NCBI GenBank assembly: GCA_002104895.1
Contig: MCFG01000090.1
Coordinates: forward strand, 160,001 to 187,498
DNA from: Anaeromyces robustus
Lineage: Eukaryota; Neocallimastigomycota; Neocallimastigomycetes; Neocallimastigales; Neocallimastigaceae
Length of the DNA: 27,498 nucleotides
Direction of reading: 5' to 3'
In this document: positions 1 to 27,498 of the stretch, in pieces
Layout of the letters: the number at the start of each line of letters is the position of its first letter
Numbering within the stretch: position 1 is the first letter of the stretch
Program-made: the position numbers and the translations under genes
Notes under the pieces: model-generated
Databases searched by the model: none
Seen by the model: the letters and a program-made list of their open reading frames with translations, nothing else
What the model was told of the DNA's origin: nothing

Positions 1-1363
1 ATAATAATAAAATATATATATATAAATATTGTAAAAAAAAAAAAAAAAAAAAAATAAAAAAAATAAAAAAAAAAAAAGATTTTTTTTGTAAGAATATTTT
101 AGTGTTGATGGTGATAATATTGATGGTGATAGTATTGATGATGATGATACTATATATATATGTATATATATTGTATATTGTTTATATAAAAATAGCAATT
201 ATTATAAATCATAAAGTGAAATAAAATTTATAGTGATTGCTTTTTTTCTTTTCTTTTTTTAATGTATGATTATATATTCTAAAAAGTAAAAGAAAAGTAA
301 AAAAGAAAAGTAAAAAAAAAAAAAAGATTGAAAAATTGAAAACTTAATAAATAATAAAACAATGAAATAATAAAATAAGAAAATAATTATTATTTTACAA
401 TTTATTTGATGAATTTAACTATCTTTTCCTCTTCTTCTCTCTCTCCTTCCCCCTCTCAAAGGAAGAAAGGAAGAGGTTAACTTTTAAAAATATTTATAAA
501 GAGATTTATAGTGTATATTGTATACATATATTTTATACATCATACTTAATAAAAAAAAGAGAATAAATATTGAAAATAAATCTTTTTTTTTTTTTTTACT
601 ATTTATTACAAATTGTAAAATAAAGTTTTATTAATTAATATAGATTTTTCTATCCTCAATTATTTTATTATTATGATTATTTATAATTAATAATAATCAT
701 AATAAATTTAATCTATTAAAATATAATATATTAATAAATAAATATATTATACATACTATAATATTTTACAAAAAAAAAAAAAAAAAATTTTTTATACAAT
801 AAAAGGAATTTCTTTTTTTTTTTTTTTTTTTTTTATTTTTTTTTTTCTTAAGAAATAATTTTTTGTAATGTTGGTAACATCTCTATAAAGAATTTTCATT
901 GTCAAATAAATAAGTTTTAAGTAAAAATCTTTTAATAAAATCATTAAATATATTATAACATTTTTTAAAAAAAAATATATATATATAATATAAAATGAGT
1001 ATAGAAAAAAAGTAAAAAATAAAAACCGTTAATTATGATAACACAATATATTCTACATAATCTATGTAGATTTTAAATGATAAATCATAAATGATATATA
1101 TATATATATCATTATTATTAAAATAACCAAAGTTTTAATAATTGAAAGTATTTTTTTTTCTAATTTAAATATTTAAAAATAAAATCAAAAAAATTAAAAT
1201 AATAGTTATTAATTGAATTTATATTTAATATAAAATACTACATTGTTTTTTTTTTTTAATATATTTTATTTAATAATTTTTTTTTTTTTTTAAAAAAAAA
1301 AAAAGAAAAATAAAATATAAAAATAATAATATAAGTTTTTAATAATATATAAAATATGAATTT

Positions 1364-1395
<32 letters not shown>

Positions 1396-1789
1396 AATAA
1401 ATTTAATAAGAATGAATCAATTAATTTATGATGATGATAATTAATAATTAATTGATTTTAATATTAAATATAAATATAAATATAAATAATAGTAAATATA
1501 ATTATAAATGTAAATATAATAGATCATTTTTTTTTTAAGGAAAAATATACATAAAATATATAATAATAATAATAAATGAATGATTTGAAAAAAGAAATAT
1601 TTTTTTTATAAGTATAAATATATAAATAACTATAAAATATTCAAATTGTAATTTTTTTTTCTTATTATTATTTTTTAAAAAAAAATAAAAATAAAAATAA
1701 AAAAAAAAAATTAGAAAATATATAAATATGTTAACAGTTTTATGTAAATTATAAATAATTTTTAATTTTTAATCTTTTTTTTCAACCAT
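1..1789. other. A+T-rich stretch with no recognisable gene
   Basis: This stretch lies 3' of the large minus-strand LRR gene. It consists of poly-A and poly-T runs, TA dinucleotide runs and short palindromes, for example a hairpin-like pair around 669-711 built on ttattatgatt and its complement. A small stretch at 107-149 is a 15-base repeat (gat ggt gat aat/agt att) that would read DGDNI DGDSI on the plus strand, but no open frame or splice context supports a gene there. No exon with convincing splice sites was found on either strand. Confidence 0.6.
421..476. repeat. Polypyrimidine tract followed by polypurine tract
   Basis: About 37 bases almost purely C and T (cttcttctctctctccttcc-like) are followed directly by about 18 bases of A and G (ggaagaaaggaagagg). 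The two halves are partly complementary, so the stretch could fold as an imperfect hairpin. It is among the most C/G-rich short spots in an otherwise A/T desert. No coding role is visible. Confidence 0.6.
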
Positions 1790-3485
1790 TTAAATATTTT
1801 CAATAAAACCTTTTATATTTAAATTTAATGCTTTTAATATACTTTTAACTATATTTAAAAGTTGATTAATAAGATTCATAATTTTTTCTAAAAAGTTGTT
1901 GCTTTTCTTCTCATCATTTTCATTATTAATTTTTTGATCATTAATTTCAATAAAAGTAGAATTATCAATTTCATTAAGTTGACTAACATCACCTTCTGTA
2001 TCAGAGAAATTATCAGTTTCATTAAGTTTGTTAACATCATTCTCTATGTCAGAGGAATTATTAATTTCATTAATTTTGTTAACATCACTTTCTACATCAG
2101 AGGAATTATTAATTTCATTAATTTTATTAACATCACTTTCTACATCAGAAGAATTATCAATTTCATTAATTTTATTACCATCACTCTTTATATCAGAGGA
2201 ATTATCAATTTCATTAATTTTGTTAACATCACTCTCTATATCAGAGGAATTATTGATTTCATTAATTTTGTTAACATCACTTTCTATATCGGAGGAATTA
2301 TCAATTTCATTAATTTTGTTAACATCACTTTCTATATCAGAGGAATTATTAATTTCATTAATTTTGTTAACATCACTTTCTACATCAGAAGAATTATCAA
2401 TTTCATTAATTTTATTACCATCACTCTTTATATCAGAGGAATTATCAATTTCATTAATTTTGTTAATATCATTTTCTATATCAGAAGAATTATTGATTTC
2501 ATTAATTTTGTTAATATCACTTTCTATATCAGAGGAATTATCAATTTCATTAATTTTATTACCATCACTTTCTATATCAGAGGAATCATTGGTTTCATTA
2601 ATTTTATTACCATATTTTGTATCAGAATTATCTTCTTTATTTGATTTATCATTTTTATCATTTTTATTTTCTTTACCATCTTTATTTTTGTCTTTTTTAT
2701 CATCCTTATTATTTTTGTCTTTTTTATCATCCTTATTATTTTTGTCTTTTTTATCTTCTTTATAATCTTTTTTATCATCTTTATTAGTTTTGTCTTTGTC
2801 TTTCTTATCTTCCTTATTTTTGTTCTTTTCATCATCCTTATTAGTTTTGTCTTTATTATCATCTTTATTAGTTTTGTCTTTGTCTTTTTTATCATCTTTA
2901 TTAGTTTTGTCTTTGTCTTTTTTATCATCCTTATTAGTTTTTTCTTTATCTTTTTTATCTTCCTTATTTTTGTTCTTTTCATCATCCTTATTAGTTTTGT
3001 CTTTATTATCATCCTTATTATTTTTATCTTTTTTATCATCCTTATTAGTTTTGTCTTTGTCTTTTTTATCATCTTTATTAGATTTATCTTTTTTATCATC
3101 TTTATTAGTTTTGTCTTTATTATCATCTTTATTATTTTTGTCTTTGTCTTTTTTATCATCCTTATTATTTTTATCTTTTTTATCTTCCTTATTTTCCTTA
3201 TTTTTGTTCTTTTCATCATCTTTCTTATTATCATCATCTTTCTTATTATCATTTATATCAGAATCATTAGTTGGTGAAGTTATTTTGGTTATAGTTTTTA
3301 TAACAGTTGAAGTAGTAGTTGATTCATTTTCAATGTTAGTGGTTGTAGGAATATTTTCAATCGTTTTTGTTATTGTTTTTGTTATTGTTGATTGTGTTGG
3401 TTCTTCAGTTTCATTATTACATGGATCATTTTTAAAACTCTTTAAATCTTTAATTCCTTCACTATTTTTTTTATAAATAACTTCC
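1790..3485 (-). other. Terminal exon 49: low-complexity, highly charged tail
   Basis: This 1696-base exon (565 codons including the stop) follows an acceptor ending ATAG at 3486-3487. It opens with EVIYKKNSEGIKDLKSFKND and a Cys, homologous to the first exon of modules 3 and 4, then leaves that homology. A Thr/Ser-rich linker follows at about 3250-3420 (TSTVIKTITKITSPTN and similar). A Lys/Asp/Asn-rich region follows at about 2632-3250 (KDDNKDKTNKDDKKDKDK type), then the 48-base acidic repeats. The last 60 or so residues include FLEKIMNLINQLLNIVKSIL, an amphipathic helix-like stretch, before the TAA. No start codon is needed because the frame is entered by splicing. Open frames on the opposite strand and in other frames here are shadows of the repeats. 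Confidence 0.85.
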
Positions 3486-5555
3486 CTATAATCATTATAA
3501 AATATAATGAAATTAATTTTATTTTATTATTATTATTATTATTATTTTTAAAATGAAAGATTAAAATTATTATAAAAATATAAATTTTATTAATTTTTTT
3601 TATTAATTATTATTTTGTTTTCCTAATAAAATAATAATAATAGAAAAAAAAAATATATATATTAAATATATTTACAATGAACAACGAGTTTCTAAATTTT
3701 TTAATTTTTTGTAACCTTCTTCACTTAAATCTATGAAACTGTTACTTTGAGAAAAATCACTAAATTTATATTTTAATATATATATATTTTATATGATTAA
3801 TTTTTTTTTAATAATTTTTTAAATTTATATATATATATATATAAAATGATTTAATTTAATATAAATTTTTTTAAATAGAATATATTGTCATATATAAATT
3901 GTATTCTACTTACATGTGATTAAGATTAGTTGAAACTTCAATAGCATCAGCAACAGCATCTACAATATAATATCCTTCCATATACCTAATTGTATTAATA
4001 ATTAATTAATAAAAAAAATTAATCATCATAGCAAACTAAATTACTTATTATTATTATTTTTTTATTATTATTAAATAATAGCAAATATCTTACAATGATT
4101 TTAAATTATTGGATTCAGGTAATTTAAACTGTTCAATATCATCAAACATATCATGGGATTTAATAATAAATACATAGTTTGAATAAAGAGTTCTAAGATA
4201 ATATAATATATAATATAATTTAAAAATAATTATATTAAATATTAATATATATCTAATTAAATAATAATAATAATAATAAAAAAAAAAAAAAACAAAGTAA
4301 TAAAAAACAATATAATAATAATATCTTTAAACTTACAAATCAACAAGATTATCTAATTTTTCTAAAAAGGAAAGATCTTTTGAATTTGTATGAAGGGATC
4401 TTGAATATAAAAATTTTTTTTTTAATTTTATAATAAATGAATATATTAATATTATGAGTGTAATAAATAATTATAATATAAAATATAATATTATATTATA
4501 TTTGACCATATTATATTATTTTATTTTATTTTATTTTGTATAATGTATTATTTATTTTTATTTTTATATAATTTTTAAATTATAAATATATAAACTTACA
4601 ATTTTGTAAGATTTTTTAATTTTGTTAATTGATTTACTGCACTTTCACCATTTAAATCAGCATTTCTGTATTAAAAAAATAATCAATAAATATATATATA
4701 GTAAAAATACATTTATTTAATATTTTATATTTATTATAATATATTTATAATATATAAATTAGATGTTTGATATATATATATATTTTTTTTTTTTTTCTTT
4801 TTTTCTTTCTTTGACAATATTAATAAAATAGAAATATAATTATTTTTTTAAAAAATAATTATATTTCCTTTATGTATCATTTCATTTTTGTTTTTAATTA
4901 AAAAGTTGTTTAATAACAATATTATTATTAAAAATTATAGTATAACTTACAAATTCTTTAATGATTTGAAACTAGTTATTAATTCAGCAAGACTTTCTTT
5001 TTTAATGAAATGATTGTTATATCTATTGGTATATCTATTTTTTATTTTTCTATTTAATTAAATAACAATAAGATATTAAATATATAAATATATATAATAT
5101 ATTAAATATAATTTTTTTTAATATTATATTAGAAATAAATGATTAATAAAATATTTAATTGAAATTTATATATATATATATATATAGAATACTATGATGA
5201 ATTATATATAAATTATAGAAATTTACAAATTGGTCATTTTATCAAGATTACTCAAAGATTCATAATTTAAAGTACCATCAGTAGTTAATTCAGAAAGAGT
5301 TCTAATAATTAATAATAATAATATATATATATTAATTAAAATATATTACATAATATATTTAAATATTTATTTATTATAAAAGGAAAAAAAAAAAACTTAC
5401 AATGATTCTAAATTACTTAAAGTAGAAATATCATCAATATTGTCTTGAGATATTAATATTCCAAAAATATTCCTAAAATTTTTTTATCAATTTTTTATTA
5501 TAAAATAAAAAATAAAAATATATTAATATATCAAAATTACTATTACTTCTGTAAA

Positions 5556-5614
<59 letters not shown>

Positions 5615-7412
5615 CTTTTTTAATTATAATATCAAAACTTACAAATCCTTTAAATTCGTTAAATCTTTTAAAGTATTCTTTTCGATAACATTTAATGAAT
5701 AGTCAGGACACCATGTACTACAATAATTAGCTTCTTCTTTATAGCTAATTGTTCTATTTTAATTTTTTTATAAAATTAATAGAATAATATTATATTTTAT
5801 TATTAAAAGATAATTAATTTTTTTTTTAAAACTAATAGAAAAAAAAAATATATATATATATTATTCTTACAAAGATGTTAAATTCTTTAAATTGTTAATA
5901 AAAGATGGAATATTTTTATAAAATTGTATTTCTTCAGGATTATAGGCATTTACTATAACTTCATAATGACTAAAAAAATAGAATATATATATATTAATTA
6001 TTTTTTTTTAAAAAAAAAAATACAATAAAATATAAAATAAAAAATATATATTAAAAAAAAATAATTTATTTAATTATTAATTATTAATTTCAAATAGATA
6101 TAAATTTATATTTATTTATAAACATACAGTTCTGTAATGCTATCATAAGATAACATTTTTTTAATTTCATCTTCCAATAAATCATAATTTTCTATAGTTC
6201 TATATTAAATATATTAAAATAAAAATTAATAAAAAGTTAATATAAAAAAATAAGAAGAGAACATATATTTAGAGATTAAAAGATTAAATGATATTATGAT
6301 AATATCATATTAATACTAATAACTAAAAAAAAAAGAGAGAAATTTATTTTTTTTTTTTATATTTCATTAAAAAAAATTTTTTTAATAAACAATTTCTTTT
6401 AATGAACTTTAAGTAATTAAGTAAAAAAAAAAATTATTACTTACAATTTACTTATTTTTCCTTCACCATCATTACTACATGAAGTAATTTTACTTTTTCG
6501 ATCTTTTAAATAATCTTGAAGTTTTCCACAATCACTTAAATCAAGTTCTTTATCAATACATGATTCATTTTTAAAACTATGTAAATCATTAACAGCCTCA
6601 CTATTTTCTGAATAAATCACTTCCCTTTATATATATATATATTTATATATATATTTTATATATATTTTAATTATAAAATGAAAAATTTATTATTCAATCT
6701 ATTACCATAATATATTCTTATTATTATTATTTTTTATTTTATATATTTTCTTAAAAATTATAATAATAATAATAGTAATAAAAAAATAATGAAAGAAAGA
6801 AAAAAAAACATATATTTACAAAGAGCAACGAGTTTCTAAGCTTTTTAATTTTTTATAGCCTTCATCACTTAATTTTTTGAAACTGGTTATTCGATGGAAT
6901 TCTCTAAATTTATAATATTTTTATATATTAATAATTTTAATAATATTAATATATAAATTATATTTATTTATGTTATTAAATTTTTTTTTTTAAAAAATTT
7001 TTTAATTTGTAAATTATTAAAATAATATTTAAAAATATAATCATATATTATAAGTTATATTATTTTACATTTGATTAAGATTAGTTGAAGCCTCAATAGC
7101 ATCGGCAACATCATCTATAATATAAAATCCTTCCATATACCTAATAGTGATAATAATAATAATATTTAATAAAAATTTAATAATAATAGTCAAATAGATT
7201 TACTGTTTTATTCAAATAATAAATAAATATCTTACAATGTTTTTAAATTATCAGGTAATTTAAATTTTTCAATAGTATCATAAACTTCATTGGTTTTAAT
7301 TTCAAATACAGAATATGAATAAAGTGTTCTTTATCGATAAATAAATAAATAATTTTATTAATATATATTGATTTGTTAAATAAACAAACAAATAAATAAA
7401 TAATAAGTAAAC

Positions 7413-7443
<31 letters not shown>

Positions 7444-8545
7444 TTTTTATACTTACAAATCAGTAAGATTAGTTAACTTTTCTAAAAAGGTGTAATCTAC
7501 TGTATTTGTATGAAGAATTCTAAGGAAAAAAAAGTATATTATTAAAAATTTTAATTTTTATAATTATATGTGTTAAATAAATTTGTTTTATAAATAGTAA
7601 ATAAAATAGAAATTATAATGTATATTTTATATTATTAAATTATTATCATTAATAAATAAATAAATAAAATTTATAAAATTTATAATAATAACTTACAATT
7701 TAGTGAGGTTATTTAATTTCGTTATTTTATTTAAAGTACTTTCATCATAGATATCAGCATCTCTATTAAAGAAAAAATAAAAAAATTATAATAATAATAT
7801 TTTAAATTAATATTTTAATTAATTTATTATGTTTTATATATATATATTCTTTTCTTTAACAGTAATTAATAAAACTAGAAATTTTACTATTTTTGAAATT
7901 GAATTTTTATATAAATTATTTTTTCATTTTATTTTTTTATCAATATCATTTTTTTATCAATAAAAATGTTTATTAATTTTATTAACAAATTATTGTGTTA
8001 ACTTACAATATCTCTAATGATTTAAAACTAGTTATTAATTCATCTGAATTTTCTATTTTAGTCATAAGATCATTATAATAACAAGGACTTTTATCTTGGA
8101 TTTTTCTAAATAATTATATATTAATAATAAAATTTTTTATATATTAATATGTTTAAATTTTAATTTTATATTTAAAAAATTTTTCTTTTTTTTTTATTTT
8201 TTATTTAGTCAAATTAAAATAGTTAAAATAGAAATAGGAATAATAAATAAAGTAAAAAAAAATTTACAATTTAGTCAATTTATCAAGATTATTTAAAGAT
8301 TTATAATCTAAAGTACCATCAGTACCAAATTCAGAGAAAGTTCTAATATAAATAATAACATATATAATAATTATATATATTAATAAAATATTTTTTTTTT
8401 ATTAAATTAAATAATATATTTTAAATAATTATTATAATTATTATTGATTATAAAAGGGAAAAAACTTACAATGATTCTAAATTATTTAAAGTAGATATTT
8501 CATCAATATTATCTTGAGATATCAAAATTCCATGAATTTCCCTAA

Positions 8546-8617
<72 letters not shown>

Positions 8618-10885
8618 TTAAAAGTAAATATATAGTAATATAAAATTTATAAAGAAAAGTTTTTTTTTCATTTTAAATCTAAGCTTACAAATCTTTTAAA
8701 TTTATTAAATCCTTTAAAGTATTTTTATCAATAACATTTAAATAATACTCAGGACACCATCTACTACAAGAATTATATATTTCCGCATAATCAATTGTTC
8801 TAAATAAAAATTAAAAAAAAAAAAGAAAGTATAATAATCGATTATTAAAAAATTTATATATATATATATTTTTAATTAATGTTATTAATATATTTATAAA
8901 CTAAAGCATATGTTCTTACAAAGATGTTAAATTCTTTAAATTATTAATAGAAGATGGAATATCTTTATAAATATCATTTGAAAAATAACGATTTCCATAA
9001 ATGAGATATTTACTAAATTATTTGTTAATATATTTTACAAGAAAAAAAAAGATTAATTATTAAATATAGATTCATTATTAATAATTTATTTATTTATTTA
9101 TTTATTAAAATTAACAGATATATTATAAATAAGTTATATTTTTATATAAACATACAGTTCTGTTATAGTATTATAGGATAATATTTTATTAACTTCATCT
9201 TCATTCAAGTCATAATTAAAAATATTTCTGTTAATATACAAATAATTAATATATAATTAAAAAAAACAATAATAATAATAAATGAGATTGAATTATTATT
9301 ATTAATATTATATTTTAATTGTATTTATTTTATTATATATTTTATTTTATTATATTTTTATTTTATTTTTTTTTTTTTTAAAAAAATTTTTTTGAATTAT
9401 TATTATTACTATAAATAATTAAAAAAAAAAAATCCCACTTACAAACTACTTATTTTTCCTTCATTGTTGTTTTCACAAGAATGAATTTCACTTCTTTTAT
9501 CTTTTAAATATTCTTTAAGTTTTTCACAATCACTTAAATCAATACTTTCATCTAGGCATGGCTCATTTATAAAACTTTTTAAATCTTTAAAATCTTCATT
9601 CATTTGTGAATAATCAATTTCTCTATATTTATATATTAATAAACAATATAAACAATGAAATAAAATTTTAATTCACATATATATATGTATATATATATAT
9701 ATATATATTTGTTTGATTATTATAAGTTATTTATTTAATAATAAAAAAAAATTTTTTTTTAATATTTTTATATATAATTACAAAGAACAATGGTCTTCCA
9801 AGCTTTTTAATTTTTTAAAACCTTCATCACTTAAATTTTTGAAACTATCATAAGAAAAATCTCTAAATATATATATAAATATATTATAATAATGTATTTT
9901 TTTTAAAAAAGTTTCTTTTTTTGATGATTTTAATAGTATAATAAATCTACTATATTTTTTTTTAAAAAAAAATGAAATTAGCATGTTAATTGTATTATCT
10001 TACATTTTATTAAGACCAGTTGAAGTCTCAATAGCATCAACAATAGGATCTGTAATATAAAATCCTACCAAATCCCTAATATCAATAAAATTAAAATTAA
10101 ATGTAGTTAGTAATAATAATCGAATAATATTATTTGATTCGATAAGATATATCTTACAATTTTTTCAAATTATTCGATTCAGGTAATTTAAATTTTTTAA
10201 TATCTTCAAAAATACCATGAGATCTAACATAAGTCATAGATAATGAAATAATTGACCTACAATAAATTTAGAATTATATTAATTAAATCAACAGAAATAG
10301 ATAAAAGTGAAATTAATTAAAAATAAAAAAGAAAAAAAAATAAGAATAATAATACTATTGGTATTACTACTACTATTACAACTACTGTTAATACCAAGAA
10401 TATTAATAATGATAATAATAATAATATATAATAATAATCATAATAATTTTAAAATTTACAAATCAACAAGGTCGTTTAGTTCTTCTAAGAAAGTAAAGTC
10501 TTCTGAGATCGAACCAAGACGCCTAAACCAAACAAATTTAAAAAAAATCAGTCATTAAAATAATATAGTATTTTTTTTTTAAATTATTTATTAATAAATA
10601 AATTATATTATACTACTTTATTTTTTATATTATTAAATTATATATATATATAAATTTATATGTATTTTTTTTATTATATATATATTAATAAAAAATACTT
10701 ACAATTTAGTGAGGCTATTTAATTTTCCTAAATAACTAATATCTAAATATTTATAGAGATCAGCATTTCTAAAAAATATTTTTATAAAATAAATAAAATA
10801 ATTAATTTTTAATTATGAATTATTAATTATTAATTAAAAATATTTTTATTTATCATATTTATATTATATATTATACATATTTTTT

Positions 10886-10922
<37 letters not shown>

Positions 10923-13900
10923 CAACATCTCTACTGATTTAAAATTTTTGATTAATTCATCAATATTCATCATATTGTAATTTTTATTATCATATATACG
11001 TGGATTATAGCCTATAATTGATCTAATAAATTAAATAATAACAACAACAACAATAATAATAATAATATTAATATTAATAATAACAATAATAATAAGGAAT
11101 ATAGAAATATATAAACCAATTAATATTATTTGATAATAATATTGTATATAAATTTATCATTAAAAAATTTAATTTGTTAGAATAATATGAATGATGAAAT
11201 TTACAAGTTTTTCACTTTATCAAGGTTACTTAGAGAGCTATAATCTAAAACATCATTAGTAGCTGTTTCAGAGAAATATCTAAAAATATATATATATAAT
11301 ATAAATATATATTTATATATATTAATAGAATAAATAGTTGAATAAAATGAATTAATTAATGATTATTTAAAATAAATATATATATAATATCATTATATTT
11401 AATTAATTTTATTTAATGATAATAAAGAAAATAAAAATGAAAATGATCAAGAATAAGTAAAAATATTTACAAAGTTTCTAAATTTTTAAGAGTAGAAATT
11501 TCATCAATATTGTCTTGAGATATTAAAATTCCAAAAAGTTGTCTGTTTTTTATAGAAGAAATATTTTTAAATGTATTGTCATATTTAAAGAAAATATTAT
11601 TTTTAATTTTATTAATATAAAAATAATAATGTTATTGAATGATATAAAAATTTAACATATTATTTATAATAATAATAATAATAAGATAAAATAAAAAAAA
11701 AGTTTTAATTTCCAGACTTACAAGCTTTTTAAATTTTTTAAATCTTTTAAAAGGTCTTTTTCCAAAGTATTTAAATGATATTCAGGACACCATGTAGTAC
11801 ACATATTATATTCTTCCATATAGTTAATAGACCTAATAAAAATTTTATTATTAAAAATAGATATATGAATGATAAAGTTAATAAGTAATTGATAAATAAT
11901 GGAATAATAAATAATAATTATTATTTAACAAATTTTTCCTTTAATTATTATTATTAATCAAGTAAAAAAAATACTATATTCTCTTACAAAGATGTTAAAT
12001 TCTTTAAATTTTTAATAGAAGATGGAATATCTCTGTAAGATGGACCTTCTTTAAGATTTCCTTCAACTTCATAATAACTAAAATTTATATTAGAATTTAA
12101 AAAATGTGTGATTACATAATTTTTATTTATTAGTTTTTATATTCCTTATTTTTTTTTAAACTAATTAAAATATGCATTCATTTATTTATATTTTATAGGT
12201 TTTATATTAACATACAGATCTGTTATTGTATCATAAGATAATATTTTATTAATTTCTTCTTCCTTCAAATCATAGTTTTTAATTTCTCTTCATTAAATAT
12301 TAAAGATAGAAAAAAAAAATTAAAAAAGAAAAAAAAAGTTAATTATATATATTTAAAAATGTATATTATTTTATATTATACTTATTTATCTTCTTTATGT
12401 ACGATTTAAAAAAGAACATACAATTTACTAATTTTTCCTTCATCATTATTAATACAAGAAACAATTTGAGTTTTTCTATCTTTTAAATTATCTTGAAGTT
12501 TTTCACATTCACTTAAATCAAGATTTTCACCAATGCATGGTTTATTATTATTATTAAAACTTTTTAAATCTCTGAATTTGACAGAATATGAAATTGTTCT
12601 ATTAATAAAAAATAATAGATAAATAAATAAATAAATAAATAAAATATAAAAATATTTAGTTATTATATTTATAATAATAATTTTAATTATTATAATTAAT
12701 TTTTTTGAAAATAAATTAATTACAAAGAGCAACGATTTTCCAAGCTTTTTAATTTTTTATAACTTTCATCACTTAAGTCATTAAAATCATTAAATTCATA
12801 AAATCCTCTAAATTAATATAAAAATATGTATTTAAATTAAAATTATTAATTTTTTTAAAAATTATTTATTTATATATATTTATTTATACTAATAATATTA
12901 ATAATATTATTTATCTATTAATATATATATATATATATATATATATTTAATTCTTGTATATATTATATATCTTACATTTCATTAATATTAGCTAGATTTG
13001 TTATTCCATCAACAAAATCATCGTTAATTTTATATCCGAATATATCCCTATATAATAAATTTTATTTTAAATTATTATAATTTTAATTTTTAATATAATA
13101 ATATTTATAATTTATAATTATAATGTTTTATTTGTTATAATTAATCTTACAATGTCTTTAAATGTTTTAAATTAGACCAATTTATATTACTGATATTACT
13201 AGGACTATAGTTTGGACCGGCATTATATATTAACTTTGTTGGATACAATTCTCTAATATAAAAAAAAATTAATAAATTCATTAACAATAATATAATGTTT
13301 TTATATATTGAAAAATTTTATATACGAATATATATATACATAAATATATAATAAATTTTTTTAAAAAAAAAAAAAATGAAAAACAGAATAATATAAAAAA
13401 TAAAATAAAATTTTAACATAAAATATATATATTTATGTATATAATAATTATTGTTTAATATTTCTTAAAAAAAAAATTAATAAAAATTTACAAATATTCA
13501 AGGTCTTTCATATTATTTAAAAATGAAAAATCAGAAAAATATGATTTAATACGTCTAGAATATTAATAAAAAATATATATAATTAGAGTTAGTATAATGA
13601 GTAGTTTTAATGATTATTATATCAATGTATCATAATTTATTTATTTATCTTTTTAATTAATATATTCCATTTTATTTCATCCTTTTTTTTTTTTTTAACT
13701 TTATCCATTTGTTTATTAATTTATTTATTTTTTTTTATTTATATATTTATCAAATAAAATTAATTTAATATTAAAAAACTTACAAAAAAGTGAGATTATT
13801 CAATTGTTTCAAATAACTAGTGTCTGGATCTGTATCGAATATTTCAACAACACTAATTATATTTATTATATAAAAATGATTTATTTATTTATTTATTTAT

Positions 13901-15660
13901 TTATTTATTATTTAAATATAATTAATTAATAATAAATAGATTTATATATTTATATATATATTATTTATGAATATTTTTGTTTTAAATAATTAATGTAATT
14001 CATTAATAATAACTTACAGTGATTTTAATGATTTAAAGGTACTTATCAATTCTTTTTGATTTTTATTTGTAGAAAAATATTTTGATACTTCTGGAATATT
14101 ATAATTATAATAATTCCATCCATGTATAATATATCTTATAATATAAGAAAAAACATTAACATATTTATTAAATTATTTGATTTTAATATATATATATATA
14201 TTTAAATATATATAATGTTAATAAATAATAAAAAAAAAATTACAAGGAGGTCACTTTATCAAGGTTACTTAAAGGTTTATAATCTAAAGAGCTCCCTAAA
14301 GAAGAATGATAAAAATCACTTATATAATATATTTATAAATATTGAATAATATTCAAAAGATAAATTGTTTAATTATTAATTAATTAATTAATTAATTAAT
14401 TAATTATTAATTTATTATATTTTATTAAATATTATATTAATTTTATATTTATATAATAAAAATTTTTAAAAATAATTATTTCATGGTAATAATAATGAAT
14501 AATAAAACTTACAGCGATTCTAAATTAGTTAAAGTAGAAATTTCATCAATATTATCTTGAGTTATCATAATTCCAGAAATAATCCTTTAATATTATATAT
14601 ATATATATATATTTATTTATAGTAAAAAAAACAGTTTATATAATGGTTGTAATAATTGTTTTTAAAACTCATATATATATAATAAAATAAAATAAAATCT
14701 TTTTATTATCTAGTCTTACAAATCTTTTAAATTCTTTAAATCTTTTAAAGTATTTTTTTCAATAATGTTTAAATAAAATTCAGGACAATATCTGCTACAT
14801 TCATTTATATAATCATCATAATAGATTTGACTAATAATTTTATTTCAATGAAAAATAGATATATATATGTATGTATGTTATAAACAATAATTTATAATAA
14901 ATATTTATAAAAAATAAAAAAAAAATATTAACATTTTTTCAGTTATTAATAATAATAGTTATTATTCAATATATATAATATATTTTTTTTCCTTACAGGA
15001 TTTCTAGATTCTTTAAATTGTTAATTGAAGTTGGAATATTCCTGTATGGTGGTTCATACATCATCCTTACTTCATATGTGCTAAAAACAATTATATAAGC
15101 AATTTAATCATATTTAATGTTATTATTTTTATACCATGATATAAAATATGATTTAAAATATTAATAAAATAAATTTATTTATTAAATAATATTATATACA
15201 TATTTTTATATTAATATATATATTATCATATTATCATTATCATTAATTTACATACAGTGATGTTATCGAATCATAAGAAAATATTTCATTAATATCATCT
15301 TCTGTCAAGTCATGATTATCAATTGATCTATATTATTATGTATAAATGTATATAAGTATAATATAAAAGATAATAAGAATATATAATATTTATTTTTGTT
15401 TTATTATTGTATATTTTCATTATTCATTATCTAATATATATATATATATATAAAGTTTTTCATAACAACATATATAAATAAATAAATACTAACAAATAAT
15501 CGATTTTTCCTTCATCATTATTTCTACAAGATATTATACTTTTTTTGGATGATAAATAATTTTTAAGCCTTTCACACTCATCTAATTTTAAACCATAAAC
15601 ACTGGATGTTATTATAGATAGCAAACTCAGTGACGATTTTAATAAAAAATTCAGCTTCAT
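1790..15660 (-). CDS. Secreted multi-module leucine-rich-repeat protein, 49 exons
   Basis: The spliced gene encodes 2010 residues. It starts at the ATG at 15658-15660, followed by a clear signal peptide (MKLNFLLKSSLSLLSIITSS, then VYG). Residues 1-1445 are four LRR modules and residues 1446-2010 are a low-complexity tail ending at the TAA at 1790-1792. The splice model rests on GT donors (mostly GTAAGT, GTAAAT or GTATGT) and AG acceptors. All 48 introns (82-285 bases) are phase 2, the spliced length is exactly 2011 codons, and every exon I translated in the chosen frame was open. Exons typically end in an LRR signature such as NLKNLxSL, with the intron splitting the last Leu codon. LRR folds bind proteins or glycans, and the signal peptide implies secretion or surface display. 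The ligand is unknown. There is no obvious transmembrane helix or enzymatic domain. A break into several adjacent genes is possible but unlikely, since only the first module has a start codon and signal peptide. Confidence 0.88.
1995..2620 (-). repeat. 48-bp coding minisatellite, about 12-13 copies
   Basis: The unit reads on the minus strand SSDIESDVNKINEIDN (16 residues), with V/G, I/L and N/D/S exchanges. The copy nearest the C-terminus is degenerate (FSDTEGDVSQLNEIDN), as is the first copy on the Lys/Asp/Asn side. All copies stay in frame. Units are 48 bases, and a higher-order period of 240 bases (five units) is also visible. The peptide is acidic with Ile/Val every 3-4 residues. It could be an extended spacer or a weak helical stalk; no known domain is recognised. 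Confidence 0.9.
3676..6624 (-). repeat. LRR module 4 (exons 37-48)
   Basis: Exons: 6445-6624, 6128-6199, 5871-5969, 5643-5753, 5401-5472, 5227-5301, 4951-5049, 4600-4665, 4337-4399, 4094-4192, 3914-3985, 3676-3759. Lengths are 180, 72, 99, 111, 72, 75, 99, 66, 63, 99, 72 and 84. The cap reads ESCIDKELDLSDCGKL, then SCSNDGEGKISKL. The module closes with LSEEGYKKLKNLETRCSL, matching the SDEGFKKLKSLEDHCSL-type ends of the other modules. The intron at 5473-5642 carries a long (AAT)n tract. The 285-base intron at 4666-4950 is the longest in the gene. Confidence 0.88.
6820..9622 (-). repeat. LRR module 3 (exons 25-36)
   Basis: Exons: 9443-9622, 9156-9227, 8920-9012, 8689-8799, 8470-8541, 8268-8342, 8007-8105, 7697-7762, 7457-7519, 7236-7328, 7069-7140, 6820-6903. 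Lengths are 180, 72, 93, 111, 72, 75, 99, 66, 63, 93, 72 and 84. The cap reads EPCLDESIDLSDCEKL, then HSCENNNEGKISSL. Other landmarks are ILSYNTITEL (exon 26), DIPSSINNLKNLTSL (exon 27) and CSRWCPEYYLNVI (exon 28). The intron at 8542-8688 carries a long pure (ATT)n tract. Sequence and exon lengths are closest to modules 2 and 4. Confidence 0.88.
9782..12598 (-). repeat. LRR module 2 (exons 13-24)
   Basis: Exons: 12422-12598, 12216-12287, 11988-12077, 11722-11832, 11471-11542, 11205-11279, 10924-11022, 10703-10768, 10460-10522, 10158-10256, 10004-10075, 9782-9862. Lengths are 177, 72, 90, 111, 72, 75, 99, 66, 63, 99, 72 and 81. The first exon joins the previous module in frame and repeats the cap in place of a signal peptide: KPCIGENLDLSECEKL, then SCINNDEGKISKL. 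Later motifs include ILSYDTITDL (exon 14), CTTWCPEYHLN (exon 16), FGILISQDNIDEIS (exon 17) and LSNLDKVKNL (exon 18). Every exon was translated and is open in the chosen frame. Confidence 0.88.
12724..15660 (-). repeat. LRR module 1 (exons 1-12)
   Basis: Exons in transcription order: 15494-15660, 15256-15327, 14997-15080, 14720-14830, 14513-14584, 14244-14318, 14018-14134, 13784-13852, 13492-13554, 13151-13252, 12976-13047, 12724-12807. Lengths are 167, 72, 84, 111, 72, 75, 117, 69, 63, 102, 72 and 84, giving residues 1-362. The first exon carries the signal peptide and an N-terminal cap (LDECERLKNYLSSKK, then SCRNNDEGKID). The fourth exon has CSRYCPEFYLNII, a CxxxC pair conserved in all modules. 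The last exon ends ENRCSL. This module differs from the others at the seventh, eighth and tenth exons (117, 69 and 102 bases against 99, 66 and 93-99), so it looks like the most diverged copy. Confidence 0.88.
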
Positions 15661-18766: not shown

Positions 18767-19151
18767 TCTATAAAAAGTAAATTTAATTTTTTTTTAGTGT
18801 TAATACTAGAAATTTAATGGTAATATAATTATTTTAATATATATATATTTTTTAAATATTTTTAATGTGATATTTTTTAATTTATAAAATAAAATATATC
18901 AAATTTCTCTTGCTATATATAAATTAGTTCTAACAAATAATTAAAAATAAAAATAATAAAACTAAAAAATTGAAATGTATCCAAATATATTTGGTAAAAA
19001 AAGAAAGTATATATAGAAAAAGGATCTTCTTCAGTTTTCTTTTTTTTTTTTTTTTTTTTTTTTTATTTATGAGTAGTAAAGTTATTTTACTTTACCTATT
19101 TTTTTTTTTAATCTTCTTCAATTTTTTTATGGCTTCACAAAGTTTATTATT
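18767..19151. other. A+T-rich stretch with no gene
   Basis: The stretch is T-rich, with a run of about 25 T at 19039-19064. A frame from 18970 to 19305 is open but encodes mainly Phe, Leu and Ile from the T runs. It continues across the boundary of the 383-base tandem repeat, so it is not a credible gene. Confidence 0.55.
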
Positions 19152-20056
19152 TTACCTTATTTCTTATTTTATTTTCTTTACGAAATTTATAGTAAATTAC
19201 AAAAAAATATTTAATGAATTTATTTTATTTTTATTTTTTTTTAATGTTTTCAATTTTTTTTTTTTTTTTTTACAAAATTTACTTTACTTTTACTTTACTA
19301 TATAATTTACTTCATAGATTTTTTAAAAATTTATATAATTAAATTTTTATGATTTAAATATATTTTAACAGTTTATTTTATATTAAATAAAAAAGTTATA
19401 ATTAAAATATTAATATTAATTATATAACTATGATTATTATGATTATGATTAATTATTAACAATTTAAGCACAAAAAAAAAAAAAAAATGAAATAATAATA
19501 TTAATTAAAACAAAAAATAAAACAATCTTGATTATTTACCTTATTTCTTATTTTCTTTTCTTTACGAAATTTATGTAAATTACAAAGAAATATTTAATGA
19601 ATTTACTTTATTTTATTTTTTTTTTTAATGTTTTCAAATTTTTTTATTTTACTTTACAGAATTTTTTACTTTTACTTTATTTTATTTTCTTTTACTTCAT
19701 AGATTTTTTTATAATTTTTATAATTAAATTTTTATTATTTAAATATATTATAACAGTTTATTTTATATTAAATAAAAAAATTATAATTAAAATAATAATA
19801 TTATATAATTATTATGATTATTATGATTATTATTAATTATTAACAATTTAAGCACAAAAAAAAAAACAATGAAATAATAATATTAATTAAAACAAAAAAT
19901 AAAACAATCTTGATTATTTACCTTATTTCTTATTTTCTTTTCTTTACGAAATTTATAGTAAATTACAAAGAAATATTTAATGAATTTCCTTTATTTTATT
20001 TTTTTTATTGTTTTCAAATTTTTTTTTTACTTTACAGAATTTACTTTACTTTTACT

Positions 20057-20094
20057 TTATAAAAAAATCTATGAAGTAAAAGAAAATAAAATAA
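20057..20094. other. 38-bp micro-inversion within the third repeat copy
   Basis: Bases 20057-20094 are the exact reverse complement of the corresponding bases 19677-19714 in the second copy. The flanks cttttact on the left and tttttataatt on the right are in the same orientation in both. The segment begins ttat and ends ataa, so short inverted repeats mark its ends. The first copy retains the catagatttttt orientation of copy 2, so copy 3 is the derived one. Confidence 0.88.
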
Positions 20095-20142
20095 TTTTTA
20101 TAATTAAATTTTTATTATTTAAATATATTATAACAGTTTATT

Positions 20143-21233
20143 AAATGATAAATTAAACAATATTTCATCCTCTTCTAAAGAAATTTTGGAATTCTATTGG
20201 TACAGAGACATGAACAGTGATAAATCGATTAAAACTAAAACATATAAAATGAACAGTTTTGAAAAATCAAGAAATTACTTAAAGCTTTATCTAGAATTTC
20301 CTGAATATAGCAAAGGTTTTAGGTGGCTACTTAGGGCATGATGTGGATATAAAATTGATGCTAGAGTTGCTAAAACTGTTAAAATGATTAATAATTATTG
20401 ACCTAATTGTTGTTCATGTTGTTTCCATTGTGACAGTTATCAGAGAATTGACCATTGGTTTATAAATTGTTTCTTATTTAAAAATCATCGTATTAATCAC
20501 TTCTCTGATCTAGATAGAAATTTTTTTTATTTTTTAGATAGTCTTTTTAATAGTTTGGTTGTGACCAGTGAAAACTCTAGTGTAGATAATAGAATTAATA
20601 ATATTGTTATGGGTTATAAAAGTAGTAATAATATTAGGATTAATAGTATAAGTAATATAGATATTTTAGGTAATAGAAAAATAGTTAATAGGTATCGAAT
20701 TTATTTTTTTTAATTGGTGGAAGAGAATATGGTTTTAGTGATAGAAATAACAATTGTCCATACAAAAAGGAATGGGAATGTTTGTTTAAGTGTCAGACTG
20801 AATCTGGTACTTATTCAAAATCTCCATTCTTGTTGCGATCTGCGGCTCTATTGAATGATATCTGTAAAAGACAACATATATTGTTCAATAAATCCAAAAC
20901 CAACCTCTCCAGGAACGTCAATGCTGATAACACAGTAGGACAGTAGTAGGGCAAATGTCAATCCTATTTCCGACCCAAGTGGAATAGGATAGATCAATTT
21001 TACTTTAATTCTATATTTAGAATTAAGGGCTTGTATGGATTTATTGTTTTTAAATATTATTATACTACTTTTTTTCCCTCCAGTATTATTTATTATTATC
21101 TATAATATTTTACTGGTTTTTTATTTTTTTGTATCTTTTTTTTTTTTTTCATTATGTGTTATTTTTATGATTCATGTGTTTTAATATTTAAATTCAATAA
21201 AAATGACGTACAAATTGTGTGTCATAAAAAAAA
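20143..21233 (+). mobile_element. 5'-truncated LINE (non-LTR retrotransposon) 3' end
   Basis: The insert is flanked by a 13-base target-site duplication, ataacagtttatt, at 20130-20142 and 21234-21246. It ends in a short A run (21226-21233) after a 3' UTR of about 280 bases. What remains is the C-terminal part of the reverse-transcriptase ORF. It includes a zinc-knuckle CX2CX7HX4C at 20420-20470 (Cys-Phe-His-Cys ... His-Trp-Phe-Ile-Asn-Cys), with KGFRWLLRA upstream and PFLLRSAALLNDICKRQHIL downstream. The RT catalytic core is missing. The frame has TGA stops at 20339 and 20399 and a frame change in the T run 20704-20711 (one T short), and the ORF ends with TAG TAG at 20944-20949. It is dead and non-autonomous. 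The clade is not certain; the knuckle is shared by several LINE groups. Confidence 0.85.
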
Positions 21234-21404
21234 ATAACAGTTTATTTTATATTAAATAAAAAAATTATAATTAAAATATTAATAATATTATATAATTATT
21301 ATTATTATTATTAATTAATTAATTATTAACAATTTTAGCACAAAAAAAAAACAATGAAATAATAATATTAATTAAAACAAAAAATAAAACAATCTTAATT
21401 ATTT

Positions 21405-22440
21405 AAATCTTTCTTTTATAATATTGTTTAATATTGTTTTCATTGTAGTTATAAATATATTTACAATATCCATAGAACTGTGGATTAAGTATTTTTCTTT
21501 TTTTTTTTAATAGTATGTGATTATTTAATTCACTTTTAATAATAAAAATAAGTTAAATAAAAATATTAAGAGGAATTAATAATATAAAAAAACTTATTCT
21601 TAATAGTAAGAATAATCCATATAAAAATAATATGGAGGATTCCTTAATACTACAAGAGAAATTAAAGACAATTTAAATATTAAATATTAAAAATAAATTT
21701 TTCTATTTATTCTTTACAACATTTTTGTGATATATATAACCATAATACCATAATATATTTTTTATTTTTTTTTAGTTCTAACATATAATATATAACTTTT
21801 TAAATATACAATTATAATAGAAATTATTAACTATTATTTGTTCTTTGATTATAATAAAAAAATATTAAATATATATATTTTACTCTCACTATTATTCAAG
21901 GATTACAGAAACTCACATCATTATTAAAATATATATATATATAATTGTTTAAACACTTATCAGCAATTACCAATATTGAAATATTCTATTTTTTATTTGA
22001 TAATATAAGATTAAAAAGGTTTATAAGCATGATAATAATAGTAACTAAAATAATATATTTATAATTATGATATTTATTAATAATTAAAAAGGTTGACATA
22101 ACATTTTTAATTATTTTGGAGAGAAGTTAAAACAAAACTATCTAGAATGTTGATAATTAATTATTGATATTTAATAAAATTATAATTAATCAAAAATATT
22201 TAAATTCAAAATTTTAATACTTTTTATTTTTTTGGTTTCTTTGAATTATTTAGTCTTTCATTTACCTACTAATTATATATACAGTTATCTATGTATAACG
22301 TTTTAAAATACAAATATTAGTCTAAATAAGAAAAAAGTTAAAGAATAATTTTTTTAATCATTTTTGCTGGACATTGTTACATGGTCCAAAAAAAAAAAAA
22401 AAAAGATTCATCTTATTTTCATGATCAAGAAGTAAAACTT
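21405..22440. other. A+T-rich gene-free stretch
   Basis: No exon or domain is recognised. A short frame-like segment at about 21594-21676 (ILNSKNNPYKNNMEDSLIL) has somewhat more coding-like composition but no start, splice sites or known similarity. A small inverted pair (tggac/gtcca) lies at about 22368-22386. Confidence 0.5.
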
Positions 22441-23400
22441 TATATATATTAATATTTTTACTTTTATTGCTTATATAAAAATTTGTAAGAAATAATAATT
22501 TTTAATAAAATATATATATATATATATATTATTTAATTCTTATATTTTTTTAATTAAATAATAAAAAAGTATCATAACATTTTTTAACTATTATAATAAA
22601 TGATAATAATAATATTTGTTTAAGGTTAGATTATGTTTAATGAACATTATATTATTACCTATATAAAGATTTGTAAGAAAAAAATATTTTTAATAAAAAA
22701 AATACTTAATGAACATTATACAATATTTTATCTCATTTACAGATATAACTTTATATCTATTTAATTCTTTTATTCTATTTTAATAATAAAAAAGTATCAT
22801 AACACTTAACTATTATAATAAATGATGATAATTTGTTTAAGGTTAGATATTTATATTATATTTAATGAACATTATATTATTACCTATATAAAGATTTGTA
22901 AGAAAAAAATATGTACTTAATGAATATTATACAATATTTTATCTAATTTACAGATATAATTTATATCTATTTAATTCTTATATTTTTTAATTAAATAATA
23001 AAAAAGTATCATAACATTTTTTAACTATTATAATTAATGATAGTAGCAATATCTGTTAAGGCTAGATATTTGTATTTTATTCTTATATTTCATTTATATA
23101 ATAAAAAAAGTATCATAGAATTTTTAATTATTATTATATATGATAATAATAATATCTGTTAAGGTTAGATATTTATATTTAATTCTTATATTTTTTAATT
23201 AAATTATAAAAAAAATACTGTAACATTTTAATTATTATAATAAATAATAAATAATAATAATAATATCTGTTAAGGTTAGATATTTATATTTTATTTAATT
23301 CTTATATTTTAATTAAATAATAAAAAGTACAATAGCATTTTTAATTATTAAAATAAGTAATAATAATAATACCATGAAGGTTAAATATTTTAATTTTTAG
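22441..23400. repeat. Decayed tandem array built on a ~110-bp core
   Basis: The core runs through ttaattcttatatttttt, aattaaataataaaaaagta, tcataacattttt, an attataataaatgataata block and ttaaggttagatattta. I count about six to seven copies (cores beginning near 22534, 22760, 22972, 23080, 23190 and 23295). The first two spacings are about 215-225 bases, because extra material (aatgaacattatattattac and tttacagatataa blocks) sits between cores. The later spacings are about 105-110. No coding frame is supported. Confidence 0.75.
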
Positions 23401-27027: not shown

Positions 27028-27498
27028 ATGTTTGATACACAAGTACAATTATATATAGCTGTATCAATTTTTTGTATTAACCTATTTATTTATTATAATA
27101 GAAACATTTGACAGAACCGTTGTTGCTCTCAGCGGTGCTGCTTTAATGCTTTTATTAAAGATTATAGGTCAAAAAGAAGCAATCAAAGAAATTGATTTCA
27201 ATACTCTCGGTTTATTAATAGGTATGATGATTTTGGTTATGATAACCAAAAGAAGTGGTGTATTTGAATATATTGCTATTAAATTAGTTAAAATTGCAAG
27301 AGCTAGTCCAAAGAAAATTATGATATATTTATCTTTTACTACAGGTTTATTATCAGCATTATTAGACAATGTAACTACTATAATGTTAATTATACCCATT
27401 ACATTGAATATTACTGAAGAATTAAATATCAGTCCTATACCATTGATTATTACAGAAGTATTCGCTTCTAATGTTGGTGGAACAGGAACATTAATTGG
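27028..27498 (+). CDS. ArsB/NhaD/P-type ion transporter, 5' part, apparent frameshift
   Basis: This is the N-terminal part of a membrane permease of the ion-transporter superfamily (CitMHS-like; ArsB, NhaD and P protein relatives); the substrate could be an anion or sodium/proton exchange. The frame starts at ATG 27028 in a good A-rich context (aacaaaATG, MFDTQVQLYIAVSIF) and closes at TGA 27109. The downstream homologous frame carries DRTVVALSGAALMLLLKI, DFNTLGLLIGMMILVMITKR, GLLSALLDNVTTIMLIIPIT and EVFASNVGGTGTLIG; LLDNVTT and SNVGGTGTLIG are family hallmarks. About four membrane segments are covered before the window ends. The two parts meet if the T run 27068-27073 is read as five T instead of six (then SIFVLTYLFIIIETFDRT). 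No GT-AG intron in the needed phase explains it. The sequence resembles bacterial members, so acquisition from bacteria is plausible. Confidence 0.85.

Follow-up and report, generated by a model that had tools for sequence, protein, structure and literature searches.

Tandem LRR architectures and the gene in the window

Each leucine-rich repeat (LRR) domain of the animal protein Slit has its own caps, and the Slit LRR exons are about 72 bp long. Slit, a secreted axon-guidance ligand, is described as carrying four tandem LRR domains (PMC6094464), and modular LRR-coding exons have been noted in human families that include it (PMC6642158, citing Little et al. 2002). In mammalian Lrrc17, given as LRRNT-4LRR-LRRCT-LRRNT-3LRR-LRRCT, a C-cap is followed by an N-cap between LRR blocks (PMC2235866). 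Brown-algal ROCO genes are reported to have one LRR per phase-2 exon, typically of 72 bp, and up to 49 tandem LRRs per gene (PMC11378527). For fungi, Soanes and Talbot (2010) listed fifteen secreted LRR proteins without a membrane helix, from 10 species, in a survey of 49 fungal species; their paper describes secreted LRR proteins as not widespread among fungi and reports that fungi lack LRR pattern-recognition receptors (PMC2939053). Our searches of openly licensed literature turned up no description of multi-module LRR proteins in anaerobic gut fungi.

The window analyzed here is a 27,498-nt stretch of the genome of the anaerobic gut fungus Anaeromyces robustus. In the gene model on its minus strand, four LRR modules, each with both caps, follow one another in a single chain, which would give a tandem multi-solenoid arrangement like that of Slit. 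The window gene shares with Slit the number of LRR domains and the modular LRR-coding exons, and its product, like Slit, is probably secreted. The EGF repeats, laminin-G domain and C-terminal cystine knot of Slit were all absent, by Pfam, from its 564-residue tail. Lrrc17 has the same succession of internal caps but only two short blocks, whereas the modules of the window gene number four, are long, with 12 exons each, and are paralogous to one another. The window gene and the brown-algal ROCO genes both devote a single phase-2 exon to each LRR; however, the latter encode LRR-ROC-COR GTPases with near-uniform repeats, while the window gene has caps, a signal-like start and irregular exon lengths that recur by module position. 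Pfam scans of modules 1 and 3 and of the tail matched no ROC-COR domain. In contrast to the survey of Soanes and Talbot, we find in one genome many LRR exon genes, tandem modules and CBM18 domains. The preliminary description knew of no described protein with this arrangement, a statement that has to be withdrawn in view of Slit and Lrrc17 and of the tandem-module LRR genes held by C379, C54, C56 and C750 in the same genome.

Gene model and module boundaries

Read in the spliced frame from an ATG at 15660 to a stop codon ending at 1790, the gene has 2,010 stop-free codons, distributed over 48 LRR exons and one long last exon (Table 1). All 48 LRR exons are open, phase-2 and GT-AG-bounded, and all 47 internal exons are symmetric. 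The 48 acceptors are TAG (38), AAG (7) or CAG (3). Every LRR exon ends in an intron-split hydrophobic codon (Leu in 44, Ile in 4), a property that was itself required by the candidate-exon filter. The 48 exon lengths proposed earlier were all recovered as open phase-2 exons (M1/M2/M3/M4: E1 167/177/180/180; E2 72 each; E3 84/90/93/99; E4 111 each; E5 72 each; E6 75 each; E7 117/99/99/99; E8 69/66/66/66; E9 63 each; E10 102/99/93/99; E11 72 each; E12 84/81/84/84). Alternative in-frame acceptors or donors exist for many exons; the sites chosen are consistent over the four modules. A dynamic-programming exon model reproduced 47 of the 49 hand exons, an agreement that is partly circular since the same exons had served as training data for the codon and splice scores. 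The two mismatches were the stop-codon coordinate and M4E7, for which the model took the nearer acceptor (84 rather than 99 nt, frame kept). Over the LRR region the model found 48 exons with a score of 1550, as compared with at most 38 in dinucleotide shuffles (n = 20), which rules out chance open frames, and 59 on the opposite strand.

Table 1. Positions of the parts of the window gene.
Feature	Position	Strand	Basis or content
Whole coding span	1790..15660	-	49 exons, 2,010 aa, 48/48 introns phase 2
M1E1: signal-peptide-like N-terminus (MKLNFLLKSSLSLLSIITSSVYG) and first N-cap	15494..15660	-	spliced translation, hydropathy
Module 1, exons M1E1-M1E12	12724..15660	-	gene model
Boundary exon M2E1: module 1 C-cap, linker, module 2 N-cap, in one open exon	12422..12598	-	
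Module 2, exons M2E1-M2E12	9782..12598	-	gene model
Boundary exon M3E1: module 2 C-cap, linker, module 3 N-cap	9443..9622	-	
Module 3, exons M3E1-M3E12	6820..9622	-	gene model
Boundary exon M4E1: module 3 C-cap, linker, module 4 N-cap	6445..6624	-	
Module 4, exons M4E1-M4E12	3676..6624	-	gene model
M4E7: two in-frame acceptors	exon start 5049 or 5034	-	
Terminal exon: module 4 C-cap, then tail	1790..3485	-	gene model
Thr-rich tail stretch	3260..3400, approximate	-	read from translation
Lys/Asp-rich low-complexity tail stretch, internally repetitive	2628..3255, approximate	-	
48-nt (16-residue) tandem repeats, 13.6 copies, 89% matches	1959..2613	-	
C-terminal segment, mildly hydrophobic, amphipathic-looking stretch	1793..1905	-	best 19-residue hydropathy 1.17, no clear membrane helix

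We recognized caps from conserved cysteines and position; cysteines are conserved across the modules both in the caps and in exon 4, and a Pfam scan of modules 1 and 3 matched no cap family. Internal caps had been proposed at each module start, and a C-cap and an N-cap do occur together within each open boundary exon. Because these exons carry both neighboring caps, we conclude that this is one gene and not four: the module boundaries fall inside single open exons, and the intervals between modules are ordinary introns. The four linked solenoids of the preliminary description stand as four linked capped modules, each of which may fold as a separate solenoid. Assembly can be misled by repeats, and one might therefore suspect that the array is misassembled or decayed, or that four clustered genes lie here. 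We regard this, already disfavored, as highly improbable: the introns preceding the boundary exons are of ordinary length (125, 159 and 195 nt; that preceding the tail exon has 190 nt), the internal cap exons lack a signal peptide and hold both caps in one frame, and the protein difference between modules (35-55%) is excessive for an assembly artifact. The long stop-free frame, the purifying selection described below and two uninterrupted single-frame relatives in C56, which show the two-cap layout without introns, argue in the same direction.

Duplication history, relatives and selection

Protein identity between modules ranges from 45 to 65%. By peptide alignment, the nearest exon was the one at the same position in another module for 45 of the 48 exons (the exceptions being M1E8, M1E10 and M1E11). 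An eight-row protein tree gave the order M1,(M2,(M3,M4)) and placed M1-M4 in one clade (support 100/99) relative to C764, C136, C634 and C460. Three rows, C89, C202 and C358 (intronless), were dropped from this tree because in an eleven-row tree M1 was placed weakly beside long-branched rows. The proposal that a cassette was duplicated several times within one gene is supported.

That the cassette was copied with its introns holds for some of the module pairs. Raw intron identities were about 0.82 at matching and non-matching positions alike and are uninformative because the aligner gaps freely; a permutation test was used instead. Support from same-position sequence similarity was direct for M3-M4 (p = 0.0001, the test floor) and for M1-M2 (p = 0.0002), and weak for M2-M3 (p = 0.037); intron lengths correlated with r = 0.95 in M3-M4 and r = 0.53 (p = 0.08) in M1-M2. 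The similarity did not reach the 0.05 level for M1-M3 (p = 0.24), M1-M4 (p = 0.22) or M2-M4 (p = 0.07), whose introns share position and phase only, and for these pairs the claim is not borne out. The intron similarity of M1 and M2 is not what the tree order would predict, since M2 groups there with M3 and M4; the duplication history may thus be more complex.

The same genome contains single-module relatives with a similar exon-length pattern and signal-peptide-like starts (C136, C634, C764, C460 and others). In C136, C634 and C764, exon 2 has 72 nt, exon 4 111-114, exon 5 72 and exon 6 75; an extra exon of 57 nt follows, and then exons of 66, 63-66, 93-99, 72 and 81-84 nt. By exon lengths and tree, these three and the window gene have homologous LRR modules whose exons follow one order. 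Other LRR genes of the genome are modular to different degrees, with 1, 2, 4, about 5 or about 11 modules, and are not all of one subfamily: C379 has a gene with two modules and C54 one with at least two, C56 has two uninterrupted intronless frames, each with two modules and the two-cap layout (42% identity between the modules of the frame compared, 192 aligned columns), and C750 has about 11 and about 5 modules by cap count.

An exon structure of this kind might serve a repertoire in which in-frame skipping or swapping of exons yields numerous combinations of LRRs, an idea put forward for the ROCO genes of brown algae. The internal exons, all symmetric and made up of whole codons, would allow it, and alternative splicing has been reported both for the 72-bp phase-2 LRR exons of brown-algal ROCO genes (PMC11378527) and for LRR exons of human NLR genes (PMC6642158). 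Exon duplication by itself, however, predicts symmetric phase, and the order and position of the exons are kept across the modules and the single-module relatives, which suggests fixed solenoids. We consider exon skipping unlikely.

Each of the six pairwise module comparisons shows purifying selection, with omega values of 0.095-0.308 (pairwise maximum likelihood) and likelihood-ratio values of 28.7-74.2 against omega = 1. An arms-race receptor is therefore not favored. When we tested whether the concave face changes faster, the result was mixed: the odds ratio exceeded 1 in 8/8 comparisons, with nominal p < 0.05 in four, but the comparisons are non-independent and the p-values uncorrected, and the effect was almost nil for M2-M4 and M3-M4. 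Among the relatives, a Nei-Gojobori excess of dN over dS between C136 and C634 did not stand as positive selection, as a codon model with base composition gave an omega of 1.17, not different from 1. The analysis shows the architecture of the gene model, its modularity and its coding constraint, along with the other tandem-module genes and the chitin-binding relatives in this genome.

Sequence similarity, tail and proposed function

The predicted product has the tandem LxxLxI-type strand repeats of the extracellular LRR superfamily, to which it probably belongs. It has a signal-like start (hydropathy maximum 1.36), resembled by those of C136, C634, C764 and C89, and conserved Cys caps that match no Pfam cap family. 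Internalin A binds extracellularly through its concave LRR face, and matched in a profile search with E 5e-14; Internalin A and other LRR adhesins of this kind are bacterial and have one solenoid, so that the likeness lies at the level of the LRR superfamily. The LRR profile matched 25 distinct solved sequences, nearly all LRR-type by name. The best was a "Rab family protein" (E 9e-20), which we take to be the LRR part of a bacterial Roco; the others were internalins, LRR proteins, repebodies and one uncharacterised protein. In the two modules scanned with Pfam, 1 and 3, every LRR match was below the curated cut-offs, including LRR_14 (E 4e-9 and 1e-9, respectively). Viral origin and bacterial transfer gained no support: a profile scan of viral contigs gave 101 pattern matches and no relative, and a scan of prokaryotes a single 30% match (Lagierella), whose open reading frames were uninformative. 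NCBIfam returned one weak, irrelevant match.

The tail had no Pfam match up to E 0.1, and hence no CBM18 (Chitin_bind_1) domain. The single membrane helix of LRR receptors has no clear counterpart in the gene (best 19-residue hydropathy beyond residue 30, 1.17). The length and low complexity of this tail, its 16-residue tandem repeat and its lack of a Pfam domain would suit a structural wall or stalk protein, with arms and tail as spacer or filler without a specific ligand. The modules, however, are under selection at the omega values given above, irregular exon lengths are kept and the cysteines of the caps and exon 4 are conserved, and we judge a mainly structural role to have a low probability. 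It is very unlikely that the LRR arms are accessories of the extracellular enzyme complexes, organizing other secreted proteins as dockerin-LRR proteins might. One protein that combines a leucine-rich repeat with two CBM10 dockerins is listed for an anaerobic fungus (PMC12421816), and fungal dockerins (CBM10) are abundant in this genome, as expected of an anaerobic gut fungus, but the tail of the window gene has neither CBM10 nor any other Pfam match.

The last exons of C136, C634 and C764, the three scanned, all contain Chitin_bind_1 (92, 93.6 and 112.1 bits, respectively; cut-off 27.8). The single-module relatives and their CBM18 domains, absent from the preliminary description, bear on the function of the window gene; since the gene itself has neither CBM18 nor a clear membrane helix, wall attachment is argued wholly from its relatives. 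We think it moderately probable that the gene encodes a multivalent protein for recognition or adhesion, secreted and probably associated with the wall, that arose by repeated cassette duplication. Its origin would be a gene with a single module, each LRR on a phase-2 exon of its own, followed by successive duplications of the 12-exon cassette in which, by the protein tree, M1 split first and M3/M4 last. The product would have a signal peptide and four capped LRR solenoids on short linkers, followed by a long tail (Thr-rich, Lys/Asp-rich and with 16-residue repeats) that may act as a stalk, and would most likely reside at or near the fungal cell wall. The concave beta-sheet of each solenoid may face a protein or glycan ligand from plant fiber, other microbes or other fungal cells, and the four arms, whether redundant or specialized, could give avidity or several specificities.

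The gene and its relatives are candidates for recognizing or holding plant fiber, bacteria or methanogens, and suggest that the genome of a gut fungus encodes a set of surface proteins for recognition or adhesion that has received little study. When Caecomyces churrovis is co-cultured with a methanogen, the CAZyme class reported to be most upregulated is CBM18, for which the authors propose a part in fungus-methanogen contact; for A. robustus the same paper names a carbohydrate esterase, not CBM18, as the top upregulated gene (PMC8665504). The tie between LRR and CBM18, together with the rise of CBM18 in the C. churrovis co-culture, makes this a testable link. As the host is a fungus whose genome holds single-module relatives, the likeness to Slit points to convergence and, if so, would clearly exemplify how a four-solenoid layout can evolve convergently through cassette duplication. 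More tentatively, anaerobic gut fungi may possess a large repertoire of extracellular LRR proteins, exon-modular and multi-solenoid, with up to about eleven capped solenoids per chain; CBM18 would anchor some of them, and tandem LRR genes that encode membrane helices would add to the set. Such a repertoire would have grown by whole-cassette duplication, perhaps diversified by exon skipping, and would be a fungal counterpart of plant and animal LRR recognition. If true, this would mean LRR recognition in a kingdom reported to be without LRR pattern receptors (PMC2939053).

Gene model and module boundaries

The window covers positions 160001-187498 of contig C760, within a 70.17-Mb genome of 769 contigs, and has a GC content of 9-26% per kb. 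We listed GT/AG-bounded phase-2 exons on its minus strand and chained them from the ATG at 15660, obtaining 49 exons and 2,010 codons without a stop, closed by a TAA that ends at 1790. The preliminary description had proposed one LRR gene built from four copies of a 12-exon cassette, and all 48 of its exon lengths were recovered in the joined chain, which confirms the observation. The LRR exons end in Leu (44/48) or Ile (4/48) with the codon split 2/1 by the intron, a split Leu/Ile codon having been a filter condition in the exon listing. Introns are 82-285 nt long. An exon-chain model, trained on these same exons, returned 47 of the 49 exons identical to the hand chain, with a score of 1550 vs at most 38 in dinucleotide shuffles (n = 20).

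The first exons of the second to fourth modules (M2E1, M3E1 and M4E1) lack a signal peptide, and each carries a C-cap, a linker and the next N-cap within one reading frame. They are preceded by ordinary introns of 125, 159 and 195 nt. The locus thus reads as one gene with internal caps, as had been suggested. The last exon opens with the same C-cap, followed in place of a new N-cap by a tail in which a Thr-rich part, a Lys/Asp-rich part, an array of 48-nt repeats and a C-terminal segment of mild hydrophobicity (hydropathy at most 1.17) succeed one another; no Pfam match was found in the tail up to E 0.1. The repeat array is likely a site of length polymorphism.

Features of the window and of related loci
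Feature	Location	Strand	Detail
LRR gene	window 15660-1790	-	49 exons
48-nt repeat (coding minisatellite)	window 1959-2613		within tail; 13.6 copies, 89% matches
Repeats at ~380-nt spacing	window 19087-21512		around GC-richer stretch (25.7% at 20001-21000) that by eye looks like a decayed mobile element
Roughly 92-nt unit	window 23018-23323		three copies, spacing 103-111 nt
CitMHS-family transporter start	window 27146-27496	+	Pfam E 1.8e-35; runs off window
Intronless LRR relative	C358 (L037) 3097-5505	+	802 residues, acidic tail; adjoins CBM1 gene
Frame with RGS domain	C379 (L055) 126-1661	-	511 residues; lies downstream of two-module LRR gene; by eye, several hydrophobic stretches; perhaps GPCR-RGS-like
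Single-module LRR genes	C80 (L059, L060) 66-82.6 kb		five adjacent, in tandem
Caps from cap search	C750 83.5-102.8 kb	+	11
Caps from cap search	C750 73.6-80.4 kb	-	5
Probable divergent gene pair	C750 (L061, L062) ~73.6-102.8 kb	+/-	~11 and ~5 modules

Duplication history of the modules

The four modules (M1-M4), of about 360 residues each, align over 375 columns at 45-65% protein identity, M3-M4 being the top pair. Conserved Cys residues lie in the N-cap (C...SCxNxxEGKI), the C-cap (DLxSFxN..xC) and exon 4 (CxxxCP). Exons group by module position, as predicted: for 45/48, the nearest relative is the exon at the same position in another module. Omega ranges from 0.095 to 0.308 across the six module pairs. 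A tree of eight rows gave the order M1,(M2,(M3,M4)) and separated M1-M4 from the relatives on C764, C136, C634 and C460 at 100/99; with eleven rows the position of M1 was weak. The further proposal that the cassette was copied together with its introns stands in part. Compared with permuted introns, same-position introns were more alike in M3-M4 and M1-M2, and weakly in M2-M3, but the 0.05 level was not reached in M1-M3, M1-M4 or M2-M4. Since the tree order does not account for the M1-M2 likeness, the modules may have duplicated in a more complex way than that order implies.

Single-module and tandem-module relatives

Relatives were read on 14 contigs selected by search matches rather than as a census (C358, C460, C136, C634, C764, C89, C379, C419, C202, C41, C56, C54, C80 and C750). 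On C136, C634 and C764 (L039, L040 and L041) we found a single module each, with near-identical exon lengths and one extra exon, the last exon carrying 3, 3 and 4 Chitin_bind_1 (CBM18) stretches, respectively. The LRR parts of the C136 and C634 paralogues gave an omega of 1.17, not different from 1, and we regard them as under relaxed or mixed selection. CBM18-like tails were seen by eye on C460 (L051) and C41 (L052). The C89 relative, as far as read, has the first 11 exons and then regular LRR exons of mostly 66-72 nt, and those on C419 and C202 are partial. Genome-wide, CBM10 (fungal dockerin) and CBM18 each gave at least 150 matches, and neither was matched in 14 control genomes. Taken together with the AT-richness, these matches point to an anaerobic gut fungus, probably of the Neocallimastigomycota.

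Tandem modules are also present elsewhere. On C379, as far as read, a 312-nt exon consisting of C-cap, Ser-rich linker and N-cap connects two modules; on C54 there are at least two modules, linked through a 246-nt exon with the same make-up. Downstream on C54 lie a C-cap and then, by eye, CBM18-like repeats, which we infer to belong to the same gene across DNA that is partly N. Two neighbouring frames on C56 (L056), of 453 and 440 residues with two N-caps each, are uninterrupted and therefore display the tandem arrangement without any assumption about splicing; in the one frame compared, identity between the modules is 42% across 192 aligned columns. A similar intronless frame was noticed by eye on C460 (L038). 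The 13 kb read on C750 contain a chain of 56 exons, seven of them cap exons, and the plus- and minus-strand caps point to what is probably a divergent gene pair, seven caps having been read directly and the others coming from the cap search. The window-type cap search gave one weak match outside the window, on C460, and the exact cap pattern occurred at 11 places (vs 3 in the reversed control), with no contig other than the window's having more than one. The four-module cassette of this subfamily has therefore so far been seen in the window only, while the tandem-module principle occurs elsewhere too.

Function and the wider LRR gene set

The analysis shows a modular architecture at the level of the gene model, coding constraint and relatives with chitin-binding domains; secretion, fold, wall contact and ligand binding of the protein are inferred. 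The concave-face test was mixed, with odds ratios of 1.08-4.25 in eight comparisons and nominal p < 0.05 in 4/8. According to PMC8665504, CBM18 was the most upregulated CAZyme class in Caecomyces churrovis with a methanogen, and its authors suggested that CBM18 takes part in contact between fungus and methanogen; the gene ranking first in a third fungus, A. robustus, encoded a carbohydrate esterase. PMC12421816 includes an anaerobic-fungus protein that combines an LRR with two dockerins. Searches of an open-licence library turned up no account of tandem-module LRR proteins from anaerobic gut fungi.

NL[K/E/N/D]xL|GTAAG, a DNA pattern that marks where LRR exons end, occurred at 113 places vs 21 in the reversed control, which suggests many LRR exon genes in the genome. 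Three of the five C80 models terminate in a segment of strong hydrophobicity plus a short basic tail; the two segments measured scored 3.36 and 3.43, and the third was judged by eye. From their sequences these genes look like LRR membrane proteins of receptor-like type. In Soanes and Talbot (PMC2939053), LRR membrane proteins were found in 6/49 fungal species, or 4 after two probable model errors were removed; LRR receptors were reported absent from fungi and secreted LRR proteins not widespread.

The preliminary description knew of no described protein with a comparable arrangement, but Slit comes close, and the tandem modules on C379, C54, C56 and C750 show that other genes of the genome share the principle. 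Like the window gene, Slit contains four LRR domains in tandem (PMC6094464), and its LRR exons are modular too (PMC6642158); the other domains of Slit are missing from the window gene. Brown-algal ROCO genes likewise have one phase-2 exon per LRR, and alternative splicing of their LRR exons is also described (PMC11378527). The window gene is a variant of a known arrangement, not a unique one, and leads to a wider group of extracellular LRR genes in this fungus.
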